Origin: Ktedonobacterales bacterium
GTDB taxonomy: Bacteria; Chloroflexota; Ktedonobacteria; Ktedonobacterales; DATBGS01
NCBI GenBank assembly: GCA_036557285.1
Contig: DATBHW010000032.1
Span: 1-64,000 of the forward strand
Length of the DNA: 64,000 nt
Direction: 5' to 3'
Shown in pieces: positions 13,905-40,165 of the stretch. Each line of letters starts with the position of its first letter. The stretch's first letter is position 1. Below the pieces are notes generated by a model, which saw only the letters and a list, made by a program, of their open reading frames with translations, was not told the origin of the DNA and did not search any database. The position numbers and the translations under genes are program-made.

Positions 13905-14307
13905 ACTTGTAGCGCCGCCTTCCAGGCGGCTCAACGCTGGCCTGCTGATGCGTTGGCCTGGAGGGCGAACGCTCGCCCTGGCGAATCGTTGGCCGCCAGG
14001 ATGGCGGCGCTACAAGTGGCGTTGGTCTGGAGGGCGAACGCTCGCCCGGGCGAAGCGTTGAGCCGCCAGGATGGCGGCGCTACAAGTGGCGTTGGCCTGG
14101 AGGGCGGCGTGCGCGCGTGCGCAGCGGTGCGCCGCCAGGGACGGCGGCGGTACAGGCCCCCTCAGCCCCTTGCTGCCAGGGGGTGGCGGTACACGCAGAC
14201 GGCGTTCGCGTGTACCGCCGGGGTTCGCCCAGGCGCAGCGTTGGCCGCCAGGATGGCGGCGCTACCAGTGGCGTTGGCCGCCAGGAAGGCGGCGCTACAA
14301 GTGATGG
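13905..14307. repeat. Cluster of GCCGCC-hairpin (REP-like) repeats
   Basis: It begins with an inverted pair: CACTTGTAGCGCCGCC at about 13905 faces GGCGGCGCTACAAGTG at about 14003-14018, separated by a CGCTGGCCTG...TTGGCCTGGAGGGCGAACGCTCGCC core that also recurs in the 175-bp elements. Four or more further single hairpins follow with loops AGGAT, AGGGAC and AGGAA. No gene is seen here. It fills the gap between the XRE gene and the patatin gene. Confidence 0.85.
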
Positions 14308-19927: not shown

Positions 19928-20320
19928 CGGCTGGGTAGGCGCGGCGGTGGCATGGGAGGGCGGCGTGCGCGCGGGCGCGGCGTTGAGCCGCCAGGATGGC
20001 GGCGCTACAGGTGGCCTCCCCGCCTGGGTAGGCGCGGCGGTGGCGTGGAGGGGCGGCGTGCGCGCGGGCGCGGCGTTGGGCCGCCAGGATGGCGGCGCTA
20101 CAGGTGGCCTCCCCGCCCGTACTGGCGCGGCGGTGGCGTGGAGGGCGGCGTGCGCGCGGGCGCGGCGTTGGGCCGCCAAGATGGCGGCGCTACAAGCGGC
20201 CTCCCCGCCTGGGTAGGCGCGGCGGTGGCGTGGAGGGGCGGCGTGCGCGCGGGCGCAGCGTTGAGCCGCCAGGATGGCGGCGCTACAGGTGGCCTCCCCA
20301 CCCGTACTGGCGCGGCGCTA
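19928..20320. repeat. 92/93-bp tandem repeats, four copies plus partial
   Basis: Copies begin at 19928, 20021, 20114, 20206 and 20299 (spacings 93, 93, 92, 93). Each contains CGTGCGCGCGGGCGC, a GCCGCC-loop-GGCGGC hairpin and a GCTACAGGTGGCCTCC end. Copies alternate between CCTGGGTAGG and CCCGTACTGG at their start. The fifth copy is truncated. Open frames across it read low-complexity Ala/Arg/Gly and are not genes. Confidence 0.9.
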
Positions 20321-23451: not shown

Positions 23452-23814
23452 CTAGTGCGCTGCGGCCTGGTCTATGAGTTCGTCGAGTCCGGCGTTCTGT
23501 TCGCGCTCCAGGGTGCGCTCGCTGATGCCATGCAGGTAGTCCTGGGTGGCGCGGCGGGTGCGCCGCTCCTCCAGGGAGAGCCGGATGATCTGGCGCACCT
23601 GTGGGCGCAAGTCTTCGATGGCTGCCGTGATCCAGCGGCGCGTGACGATGATGGGGGGCGCGGTTTCTGTGAGGCCCAGCAGTTCCAACCGGCTTTCAGG
23701 CTCGTCGCGCGGCGTGGCGCGCAGGAACTCGCGCAGCCGACGGCGGTTTTCTGCCCGCCGCGCATCGGCTGGCGCGGTGGGTGGACGGCTGATACGTGGT
23801 AGATGCTGGCCCAT
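23452..23814 (-). CDS. Small helix-turn-helix/sigma-like protein of the terminase operon
   Basis: 120 aa from ATG 23814; GAGAGG is 10 bases upstream. The protein is strongly charged. Residues 60-118 (WITAAIEDLRPQVRQIIRLSLEERRTRRATQDYLHGISERTLEREQNAGLDELIDQAAAH) have the pattern of a sigma-70 region-4 or phage ArpU-type helix-turn-helix, with LHGISERTLEREQNAGL as the probable recognition helices. It is the third gene behind the Cys-rich and terminase genes (43-bp gap). A role as late regulator or DNA-binding packaging partner is possible (inference). Confidence 0.6.
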   Translation of the reverse strand: MGQHLPRISRPPTAPADARRAENRRRLREFLRATPRDEPESRLELLGLTETAPPIIVTRRWITAAIEDLRPQVRQIIRLSLEERRTRRATQDYLHGISERTLEREQNAGLDELIDQAAAH

Positions 23815-23857
23815 TGTCGTTTTTCCTCTCTTCAGCAAGCATAGATAGTAGAGACAC

Positions 23858-25387
23858 TCAATAACTCCCGTCTCGATAGCGGCGCTGGGGGATGATGAGT
23901 TCGCTGGCAGCGGGAGCCGCGATAGCCGCCGCAGCCCGCACGCACAGGGCCGCCGACATGAGATAGTCATCATGGCCTTTATCAAAAGGGACAAAGAAGT
24001 TGAGCTTCTGGCCGGGCAGATGGACGCTGCGCGCCTGGCGCGCTTCATCCCAAAAGTGGCGGCTTTCCGGCGAGCCATCGTCGGCGTACATCTTGAGCCG
24101 TCCGGTATTTACTGCGGCGAGCATGTCCCAGCCGAGTTTTGATTTGCTGGAGCGGGTGAACTGAAAGCCCTCGATGAGTTTGTCGCCCAGTTCTCCTTGC
24201 AACCAGGCCGCTACGCCAGCGCCAATGCCGCTGGCGTCAATTACGATGCGGGCGCACTGCCAGAGGTCGCGCAGCAAATCGCGCAGGCGCATATACTGCT
24301 CTTGATACCCCAGGCCAACCCACTCGTGCTGTTCGACGATCTGCATGAAAACGAAGCCCGGCATCTGCTGGTCGCGCTCGACCTCGGCAATGGTGATGAC
24401 GGTGGCGTCTCGCTGGGGATTCGCCAGCTTCTGGTATCCATCAAGACCTTCCTGGCCCTCGTCGGCTCCGGCTATGTCGATCCCGGCGACGTAGAGCGCG
24501 GGGCGCGCGCCAATCACGCGAGGGCTATGCAGCCGGGCATGCGCGCCGCGAAGCTGCTCTAGCTGGGCTGCTGTAAAGAGCCGATCTTTCTCGGCCACCG
24601 GCTCCAGCAGGTACTGGGTGCGGATGATGGGATGCATAAGGCCGAGTCGCTCGATCTCTGCTTCGACATACGCGCGGTAGTCGGGATTGAGCGCGGCCAG
24701 GGTGGTCCAGGGGAACTCGAAGTGCCGTCTGGTTGGCCCTACGGGGGCGCTGCGTGTCCCGGCCTGGCGCGCGGATCGCGCTTCCAGTTCCAGGTTCTGC
24801 TGCTTCTGGTGTTCCAGCAGGGTTTCGCCGGTCCAGGGAGTTCCGTAGAGGACGGTGGTGGCGTTGGAACTGGCGCACATGGGGCGAAAATCGCGCAGGT
24901 ATTTTTCTTCTACGACTTCCTGGGCTTCGTCAATTTCCAGCAGGGGATGAGCGGTTGCCCCGATGACATTTGCCGCCTTGTTCGCCGAGTAGAAGGCGAT
25001 CAAGGCGTGGCCGATCTCAATAATATGCCCTTCGCGCTCGCGCCATTCCAGGCCGGATGGGCTGGTGTCGCGGGCGGCGGTGAGTACTTCGCGCAGGCGG
25101 CGTTTGCTGAGCATCCCCTGTGGGCGCAGCGTTGGGCTGGCTTTGATGAGACTGACGCCCTTGTATTGCAGCAGGCGCAGCAGCCAGGCTTCGAGCTGCG
25201 CCGAGAGTTCGTTTTTGCCCATCTGGCGGGCCATCATTACCGTAAAAATCGCGCCATCGCGCCGCTCAATCGAGGCGAAAATGGCGCGCGCCACTTCCAT
25301 TTGATATGCTCGCAGCGAGCGTCCGATCAGTTCGCGGCTGAACCGCTCGAAGCGTTCCACTTGCAGGGAGATTACTGGCTTATCCAC
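23858..25387 (-). CDS. Phage-type terminase large subunit (ATPase-nuclease)
   Basis: 509 aa from GTG 25387 (VDKPVISLQVERF), a better start than the long upstream extension, which overlaps the previous gene. The ATPase half has a Walker-A-like MARQMGKNE (residues 52-60), Walker B LLEIDEAQEV, and coupling motif YGTPWTGE. The nuclease half is RNase-H-like with its acidic residues present: GIDIAGAD, RIVIDASGIG, and GHDDYLMS near the C-terminus. Terminases cut and pump DNA into phage or GTA capsids. All catalytic motifs look intact, yet no portal, protease or capsid gene occurs within 20 kb on either side. It is the middle gene of a three-gene operon with its own promoter. Confidence 0.85.
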   Translation of the reverse strand: MDKPVISLQVERFERFSRELIGRSLRAYQMEVARAIFASIERRDGAIFTVMMARQMGKNELSAQLEAWLLRLLQYKGVSLIKASPTLRPQGMLSKRRLREVLTAARDTSPSGLEWREREGHIIEIGHALIAFYSANKAANVIGATAHPLLEIDEAQEVVEEKYLRDFRPMCASSNATTVLYGTPWTGETLLEHQKQQNLELEARSARQAGTRSAPVGPTRRHFEFPWTTLAALNPDYRAYVEAEIERLGLMHPIIRTQYLLEPVAEKDRLFTAAQLEQLRGAHARLHSPRVIGARPALYVAGIDIAGADEGQEGLDGYQKLANPQRDATVITIAEVERDQQMPGFVFMQIVEQHEWVGLGYQEQYMRLRDLLRDLWQCARIVIDASGIGAGVAAWLQGELGDKLIEGFQFTRSSKSKLGWDMLAAVNTGRLKMYADDGSPESRHFWDEARQARSVHLPGQKLNFFVPFDKGHDDYLMSAALCVRAAAAIAAPAASELIIPQRRYRDGSY

Positions 25388-25413
25388 TCCACACCCTCTC
25401 TCTCCCCCAGACC

Positions 25414-26193
25414 CTACTGGTAATCGTCCGTTTGTTCCTCCCTGGGGGTCAGGATACCCATCTTGCGGCGGCGGGCGGTTGCGCGCAGGTGTTCTACCGC
25501 TGGATGGGGCGCGTCGGTTTCGGTATAGCCTGGGCAGGGCAGGACGACGTTGAGTGCGATTTTGTTGCGGGCAAAATCGCGCACGGTGGTGCGCCCATGC
25601 CAATAGCCCAGGCGGCATTCCATGAGCCGTACCTGGCGGCCATTGAGAACGGCGACTTCGCCGCGCACTTCGCGGGCATAGACGCAATCGCGGCATGGCC
25701 CGCCGGTTGGCTTTTCGACGCGCACCAGGGCTTCGCGCTCGCGTGGGCGCGGCGACCAGCACAAGACGCTGCATTGGTCGTAGCCAATGCAGCCGGTATA
25801 GTGAGCGCCGCTGCGCATGCAGGGAAAGACGCGCCCGGCGCGCTCGGCCTGGAGATCGCGCACTTCTACTTCGCGTGGCCTGGCGCGCACGCGCAGGGGC
25901 GCGGCGATCTCCTGGGGTTGACACGAAGCGGCCTCATCCTCAAGGTCTTCCTGGGCGACATCGGCGACATCGGCGCCGGGTGGCAGGGCGGCGTCGGGCG
26001 CGTAGGGAACTGCAAGGGTGGCCCGCCCGTTCTGTATCACGATCCGTCGCGGGCGGCCCCCTGCGGGGAGCGGCCCTTGCGGGAACCCGGTTCCCGCATT
26101 CTCGCCAGCTTTGCTGGCTCGCGGGCCGCTATCTGCGGAGTTGAGGCTGTGTTGAGACCCCTTGCCTTCATCTACCAAACCATCCCCAGCCAT
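25414..26193 (-). CDS. Cys-rich protein, first gene of the terminase operon
   Basis: 259 aa from ATG 26193; AAAGGAGG with 8-base spacing favours this over the GTG at 26202. The N-terminal 110 residues are low-complexity and polar. The C-terminal region (about 125-240) contains at least eight Cys in PCMRSG, TGCIGYDQC, LCWSPRP, GGPCRDC, MECRLGYWHGR and LPCPGYTE contexts, a possible metal-binding fold. It occupies the slot where a small terminase subunit would be expected but does not look like a known one. I do not recognise the family. The gap to the terminase start is 26 bp. Confidence 0.7.
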   Translation of the reverse strand: MAGDGLVDEGKGSQHSLNSADSGPRASKAGENAGTGFPQGPLPAGGRPRRIVIQNGRATLAVPYAPDAALPPGADVADVAQEDLEDEAASCQPQEIAAPLRVRARPREVEVRDLQAERAGRVFPCMRSGAHYTGCIGYDQCSVLCWSPRPREREALVRVEKPTGGPCRDCVYAREVRGEVAVLNGRQVRLMECRLGYWHGRTTVRDFARNKIALNVVLPCPGYTETDAPHPAVEHLRATARRRKMGILTPREEQTDDYQ

Positions 26194-26231
26194 AAGCTCC
26201 ACCTCCTTTTCGGCAACAACAAGAACAAGCC

Positions 26232-26266
26232 TGTTCTAATATAGAACAAAAGTTCCACTTTGTCAA
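26232..26266 (-). promoter_or_regulatory. Consensus promoter with 17-bp palindromic operator for terminase operon
   Basis: On the minus strand TTGACA (26261-26266), a 17-bp spacer, and TATATT (26238-26243) form a near-consensus vegetative promoter. The -10 is embedded in the perfect palindrome TGTTCTATATTAGAACA (26232-26248). A GTTCTA half-site lies at 26271-26276, just upstream of the -35. The layout suggests tight repression by a dimeric phage-type or LexA-type repressor. The leader to the ATG at 26193 would be about 38 nt. Confidence 0.8.
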
Positions 26267-26310: not shown

Positions 26311-26580
26311 CTGGCGGTTAAAACCGCGCCTGGAGGCTGCGCCGCCAAGTCCGTCTACACGGACTCACCGCCCGTGTCGGCGCGGCGTCTGTACCTGTAG
26401 CGCCGCCGTCTCTGGCGGCTCGACGTTGGCCTGCCGGTACGGTGGCGTGGAAGGGCGGCGTGCGCGCGGGGGCGGCGGTGGGCCGCCAGGATGGCGGCGC
26501 TACAAGTGGGGTGGCGTGGAGGGGCGGCGTGCGCGCGGGGGCGGCGGTGGCCGCCAAGATGGCGGCGCTACAAGTGGCTG
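26311..26580 (+). repeat. Multi-hairpin element copy 2 followed by REP-like hairpins
   Basis: Stem 1 is GCGGTT-AA-AACCGC (26316-26329) and stem 3 is AGTCCGT-CTAC-ACGGACT, a compensated variant of the usual AGCCTGT/ACAGGCT. Next comes a reverse-oriented CTGTAGCGCCGCC hairpin (26395 on), then two forward GCCGCC(AGGAT/AAGAT)GGCGGCGCTACAAGTGG copies. No gene is seen between the terminase promoter and the promoter at 26648. Confidence 0.8.
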
Positions 26581-39860: not shown

Positions 39861-40165
39861 CTGGCGGCTAAAGCCGCGCCTGGAGGCTGCGCCGCCAAGC
39901 CTGCCGACGCAGGCTCCCCGCCCCTATGAGCGGGGTGATTGCGCTCTGGAGGGGCGTGCGCGCTGGCGCGGCGGTGAGCCGCCTGGAAGGCGGCGCTACA
40001 AGTGGCGCTGGCGTGGAAGGGGGGCGTGCGCGCTGGCGCGGCGGTGAGCCGCCTGGAAGGCGGCGCTACAAGTGGCCGCCAGGGATGGCGGCGGTACACG
40101 CGGCGGTGGGCCGCCTGGAAGGCGGCGCTACAAGTGGCCGCCAGGGATGGCGGCGGTACGGGCGT
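39861..40165 (+). repeat. Multi-hairpin element copy 5 and five REP-like hairpins
   Basis: Stem 1 is GCGGCT-AA-AGCCGC (39865-39878), a double compensated variant of GCGGTT/AACCGC, and stem 3 is AGCCTGC-CGAC-GCAGGCT. Five hairpins follow, alternating between GCCGCCTGGAAGGCGGCGCTACAAGTGG and GCCGCCAGGGATGGCGGCGGTAC. Two nearly identical 68-bp units (ending at about 40015 and 40073) show recent tandem duplication. There is no gene. Confidence 0.82.

Follow-up and report, generated by a model that had tools for sequence, protein, structure and literature searches.

The window analysed here covers positions 1-64000 of contig C32 of a 5.1-Mb genome of 82 contigs (G000). On its minus strand lie three co-directional open reading frames, which encode a Cys-rich protein of 259 aa (P0001, 25414..26193), a protein of 509 aa present in a single copy in the genome (23858..25387), and a protein of 120 aa (23452..23814). 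Upstream of this trio, on the same strand, are found a ribosome-binding site (AAGGAGG, 26202..26208) 5' of the first gene and a consensus promoter, TTGACA-17-TATATT (26238..26266), with its −35 hexamer TTGACA at 26266-26261, its −10 hexamer TATATT at 26243-26238 and a spacer of exactly 17 bp. A 17-bp palindrome, TGTTCTATATTAGAACA, with arms of 7 bp and a centre of 3 nt, overlies the −10 (26232..26248). Both the promoter and the palindrome had been described in a sequence-only reading of the locus, and they were confirmed from the sequence.

The 509-aa protein is a terminase large subunit (TerL) with intact ATPase and RNase-H-like nuclease motifs, as that reading had proposed. Indeed, it matches the PHROG terminase large subunit (E 2.5e-8), and its AlphaFold model (mean pLDDT 84) finds its best PDB matches in the TerLs of phages D6E, T4, Sf6 and HK97, with E values from 1e-14 to 1e-15. 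The Walker A (ARQMGKNE) and Walker B (LLEIDEAQ) motifs and the three acidic motifs of the nuclease are conserved across 36 relatives, and the replacement of K-S/T by K-N in Walker A is likewise found in most of them. Relatives of this TerL are present in 29 of the 61 Chloroflexota genomes searched. For the Cys-rich protein, no homologue was found in Pfam, PHROGs, NCBIfam, phages or viral contigs. Searches with the 120-aa protein did not retrieve any homologue either; its match to NCBIfam sigma70-ECF, resembling sigma-70 region 4, is marginal (E 0.04) and below the cut-off. The earlier description of the flanking proteins therefore holds for the Cys-rich one and only marginally for the sigma/HTH-like one, which may be a small terminase subunit or a regulator.

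Among the genes called in the remainder of the window there is no capsid, portal, integrase or lysis gene, in agreement with the sequence-only reading, and profiles of the capsid, portal, adaptor and tail proteins matched contigs other than C32 only. Scanning the window for Rfam families and tRNAs gave no match. The window also contains interspersed, REP-like palindromes of the form GCCGCC-N2..8-GGCGGC at 59 places, where about 0.5 is expected in shuffled sequences. They are clustered in many stretches, including both flanks of the trio (for example 13914-14277, 19987-20265, 23335, 23381, 26402-26550 and 40048-40137).

A LexA-type box in the terminase promoter

Between the −35 and the −10 of the trio promoter lies a LexA-type box, TGGAAC-TTTT-GTTCTA (26242..26257, minus strand), with one mismatch to TAGAACN4GTTCTA and whose right half, GTTCTA, is common to the palindrome. 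The combined promoter-operator pattern TTGACA-N5-GAAC-N4-GTTCTAT occurs in this genome well beyond chance, with 31 matches against 2 for the reversed control when up to three mismatches are allowed, and 15 sites with at most one. The exact box TAGAAC-N4-GTTCTA is found at nine genomic places only, among which are lexA and a scattered tail gene. Furthermore, the box reads TAGAACGTGGGTTCTA at lexA and, with one mismatch each, TAGAACATTTGTTTTA 5' of dinB (DNA polymerase IV) and TAGAACGCCCGTGCTA 5' of a Cho-like exonuclease/GIY-YIG gene, and GAAY-N4-GTTC is retained at the same position of the lexA promoter in about 20 genomes of the order. Since the same box is common to lexA and classical SOS genes and is conserved at lexA across the order, the operator of the terL promoter is predicted to be a LexA binding site, that is, an SOS box. 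The repression proposed by the sequence-only reading is thus supported; the operator overlaps the palindrome that it had singled out without being identical to it.

Of the roughly ten transcription units in the phage-derived gene set described below, two carry the LexA box, namely the TerL operon and the tail gene; the chance probability of this lies between about 0.0006 and 0.004, according to how many promoters are assumed. No LexA box was found at the capsid, portal, adaptor or other head genes of this genome, so that the predicted SOS control spans packaging and tail only. The set genes of sister-family relatives display no convincing copy of the same operator, and the predicted SOS control of the set is seen in the lineage of the window genome only.

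Promoters with LexA-type boxes are also found in the window genome at C80:1662, C37:46781, C7:10061, C45:37922 and C77:10235. Behind such further boxes lie a DnaB-like helicase operon and several genes unrelated to repair, along with dnaX at a distance of 520 nt, which hints that the SOS regulon may be unusual in content. The scattered tail gene of genus g5 is preceded by a conserved inverted repeat, TATAGAC-N4-GTCTATA (L096:9618, L167:6169, L093:9294, L168:3672, L169:12787), which is another operator sequence with the same N4 geometry. The TerL leader of this genus (L050, L053, L051) carries upstream of TerL the conserved inverted repeats AAGGACCGGTC...GGCCGGTCCTT and GAGCGGGCCAGG...CCTGGCCCGCTC; an Rfam scan of the TerL leaders of the relatives gave no match.

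Dispersed head and tail genes and an interrupted portal

Clustering of the genes neighbouring TerL in relatives yielded a portal, a capsid-protease fusion, a head-tail adaptor, a tail protein, a holin and an amidase, of which four were then searched back in the window genome. Each of the four is present in one copy: the capsid-protease fusion at C38:12502-14529, the head-tail adaptor at C47:120114-121175, the tail gene at C24:18997-21006, and the portal in two halves at C38:27624-28454 and C47:129439-129828. The trio had been called isolated, which is wrong at the scale of the genome, as the capsid, portal, adaptor and tail genes reside on three other contigs. C38 holds the capsid gene, whose product is a protease fusion of the Phage_capsid_4/Mu gpT kind, together with three more small set genes, and genes unrelated to the set are interspersed among them in the opposite orientation. 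An AlphaFold model of the tail protein was discarded because of its mean pLDDT of 33.

The portal gene of the window genome is interrupted by an element, with a large serine recombinase of 675 aa at the break (Pfam Resolvase and Recombinase; PHROG integrase, E 1.8e-48). In G036, a recombinase 68% identical to it is located at the same place of the portal, and in G010 a different serine recombinase adjoins the portal break a few codons further on. By inspection, the portal halves of the window genome and of G036 join at the same conserved codons, so that excision of the element could be clean. Moreover, an amidase of the window genome carries an in-frame stop. Given the split portal and this stop, the copy of the system in the window genome may be silent, conditional (switchable) or decaying. 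Broken genes are met in several relatives too, for instance the capsid gene in G040 and TerL in G044.

At least five genomes have a split portal, for which integrative elements appear to be responsible, and related large serine recombinases (68% identical) target the same portal codon in two families. The corresponding loci are L082:7450-10456 and L084:4433-4828 in the window genome, L175:6436-9415 and L170:6892-7275 in G036, L092, L182 and L094 in G010, and L176-L179 in G043 and G046.

Conservation and inheritance in the order

TerL and the capsid strictly co-occur in the order: both are found in all 24 genomes with TerL and both are absent from the 23 others (Fisher 6e-14), and the portal, adaptor and tail genes track nearly the same genomes. 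The 24 genomes, each with single copies, span about a dozen genera; six genomes of the sister family, which was identified as Ktedonobacteraceae from the identity of one contig (L034 and G027:C295), lack both TerL and the capsid. More broadly, the capsid gene was found in 58 of 400 Chloroflexota genomes, nearly always in one copy. Such strict co-occurrence makes the lone domesticated nuclease that the sequence-only reading had also considered an unlikely identity for TerL.

The layout of the set varies widely. It is near-contiguous in one genus (G001, G036, G039, G040) and in G044, with a single cluster of 13.6 kb from portal to TerL in G039, and holin and amidase domains are found in the clusters of relatives. 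No integrase or replication gene was seen around the compact clusters. In other genera, the set genes are up to megabases apart, complete contigs included. For instance, on the single 5.6-Mb contig of G010, the adaptor lies at 1.03 Mb, the portal at 1.03-1.04 Mb, the capsid at 1.04 Mb, TerL at 1.49 Mb and the tail gene at 3.26 Mb. Host genes intervene between the phage genes in single-contig genomes, and within a genus the one copy per genome occupies conserved places.

The set genes of the relatives evolve under purifying selection: ten set genes compared among six species of genus g5 mostly have dN/dS between 0.05 and 0.15, which resembles that of a host gene nearby. Because no relative of the same genus or family as the window genome was among the genomes searched, these values concern the copies of the relatives only, and the case for a maintained system rests mainly on them. 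In the capsid and tail trees, the window genome is sister to the sister family, and genus clades recur across the TerL, capsid and tail trees. The TerL tree places the window TerL beside other classes, which suggests a TerL swapped in from another lineage; this scenario found no support in the AU test, where grouping with the order was not rejected (p 0.30). Distances of TerL and capsid correlate with those of the host LexA (Mantel r 0.87 and 0.85, respectively; p 0.06 and 0.02 with one genome per genus), and under the latter sampling the adaptor, tail and portal are not significant. Signs of recombination are present within genus g5.

Two pairs of genes stand apart in this comparison, namely the tail genes of G004 and G007 and the TerL genes of G013 and G023, with dS of about 0.01, when other genes of the same pairs have about 0.2-0.9, suggesting that single GTA-like genes may recently have been transferred between species. 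As to neighbours, TerL is followed in eleven sister-family genomes by a conserved HEAT-repeat-like protein of 549-560 aa (cluster 2; L047-L054, L056, L061, L062), which is replaced in genus g25 by a different repeat protein (cluster 31).

A probable GTA-like system and its alternatives

Taken together, we consider that the trio is probably (with a probability of roughly 0.7) the operon for DNA packaging in a system of this Chloroflexota order that resembles a gene transfer agent (GTA), is fixed in the chromosome at dispersed places and is partly under SOS control. The proposal of a maintained and repressed packaging module, possibly a GTA component, is thereby supported by the single-copy set elsewhere in the genome, the purifying selection in relatives and the tail gene with the same operator. 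Several findings sit less comfortably with this assignment: the split portal and the amidase stop of the window genome, the broken genes of some relatives, the position of the window TerL in its tree, the presence of a LexA box on no more than two of the roughly ten transcription units, and the lack of homologues for both partner proteins of TerL. In such a system, LexA bound between the −35 and the −10 would block the terminase and tail genes as long as DNA is undamaged; the head genes have no LexA box. Upon damage, RecA-driven cleavage of LexA would release the terminase and tail genes, TerL would dock on the portal and fill capsids with host chromosomal DNA, as there is no replicating phage genome to serve, and the holin and amidase genes would then lyse the producer cell.

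Other explanations have to be weighed against this GTA-like system. The set could be an old prophage remnant that entered the ancestor of the order and is now breaking up, the terminase promoter being intact by chance. The split portal and the amidase stop of the window genome, the broken capsid or TerL genes of some relatives and the six sister-family genomes devoid of both genes are in line with such a decay. However, it fits poorly with the low dN/dS of ten genes in six species, with single copies kept across 24 genomes from a dozen or so genera, with the loss of TerL and capsid jointly rather than piecemeal, and with the retention of the LexA box on two unlinked genes, and we regard it as unlikely. 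That the trio would instead be an SOS-induced nuclease/ATPase for chromosome cutting or repair, acting independently of the capsid genes, would account for the LexA box, the unlinked location, the two orphan, non-phage partners and an ancestry of TerL possibly other than that of the capsid genes. Yet the genome encodes no other TerL, and in the order TerL co-occurs strictly with the capsid and nearly strictly with the portal and adaptor, which leaves little room for this function.

A live temperate phage or satellite, whose genes would have been assembled onto separate contigs, is largely refuted and the least probable of all. TerL and capsid relatives do occur in contigs catalogued as viral and, with 25-32% identity, in isolated phages. 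Against it stand the scattering with intervening host genes in single-contig genomes, the occurrence of each gene once per genome at places conserved within a genus, and the fact that no contiguous element with integrase or replication genes was seen in the window or around the compact clusters. For want of integrase or satellite genes around the trio or the compact clusters, the phage satellite evoked by the sequence-only reading is likewise disfavoured. The nearest TerL of an isolated phage, that of Bacillus phage vB_BboS-125, shares 32% identity over 86% of TerL, but belongs to a 58.5-kb phage genome and not to a dispersed chromosomal set; the nearest capsid, 30% identical over 95% of the protease-capsid fusion, is that of Microcystis phage Mae-JY22, also a free phage. 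The adaptor has no match among isolated phages.

The definition of GTAs comprises six defining features (Kogay et al. 2022, PMC9662315). Two of them are recognizable here: proteins derived from tailed phages, as judged from the TerL, capsid-protease, portal, tail, holin and amidase matches, and full endogenisation, often at several loci, with single copies on C24, C32, C38 and C47 and scattered genes in complete relatives. A third, vertical inheritance with co-diversification alongside the hosts, is suggested by the recurrent genus clades and by the correlation of TerL and capsid with host LexA distances, more weakly so with one genome per genus. The other three are particles that mostly carry random host DNA, a genome that does not fit entirely into its own particles, and delivery of the carried DNA to other cells. 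Where the loci are up to megabases apart, packaging of the set in one piece is implausible. A close precedent is BhGTA (VSH-1) of Brachyspira hyodysenteriae (Brachygtaviriformidae), which has a single terL outside its structural cluster, is induced by DNA-damaging agents including mitomycin C, and has lost synteny between species (PMC9662315). The likeness is one of features, and the phylum is different; in addition, the present system scatters even structural genes in many genera and has a LexA box inside the terL promoter itself. The alphaproteobacterial type I GTAs, RcGTA and the Caulobacter GTA, combine a head-tail cluster, multiple loci and vertical inheritance with stress-tied regulation, controlled by GafA/GafYZ and, in Caulobacter, by the LexA-like repressor RogA, which lacks key catalytic residues (PMC10883770, PMC9632790). 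Compared by description, the present system shares with them head-tail genes and multiple loci, and may also share vertical inheritance and stress-linked regulation. It differs in that its operator is the box of the host LexA itself and its capsid is a protease fusion of the Phage_capsid_4/Mu gpT kind. The system is GTA-like on present evidence, and it would be premature to classify it as a GTA.

A more far-reaching proposal, which we put forward tentatively and hold to be rather doubtful, is that of a production-competent GTA lineage, domesticated independently in Chloroflexota, with motor and tail gated directly by LexA. The portal would then be a preferred landing site of serine integrases, whose elements would switch particle production off and whose excision could restore it.

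The literature searched contains no report of a GTA in Chloroflexota, and recent papers listing known GTAs name none there. The present system looks like a previously unreported GTA, that is, a domesticated virus moving host DNA, in soil-type Chloroflexota. Few lineages have formally characterised GTAs, to which a Chloroflexota set would add an independent origin. Mobile elements have entered the portal repeatedly, which suggests that these elements and a host-owned capsid are linked by a conflict or a switch. With a LexA box on the terminase, a link from DNA damage to gene transfer can be put to a direct test. With compact and fully scattered layouts of the same genes side by side in one order, a virus dissolving into the chromosome can be watched.
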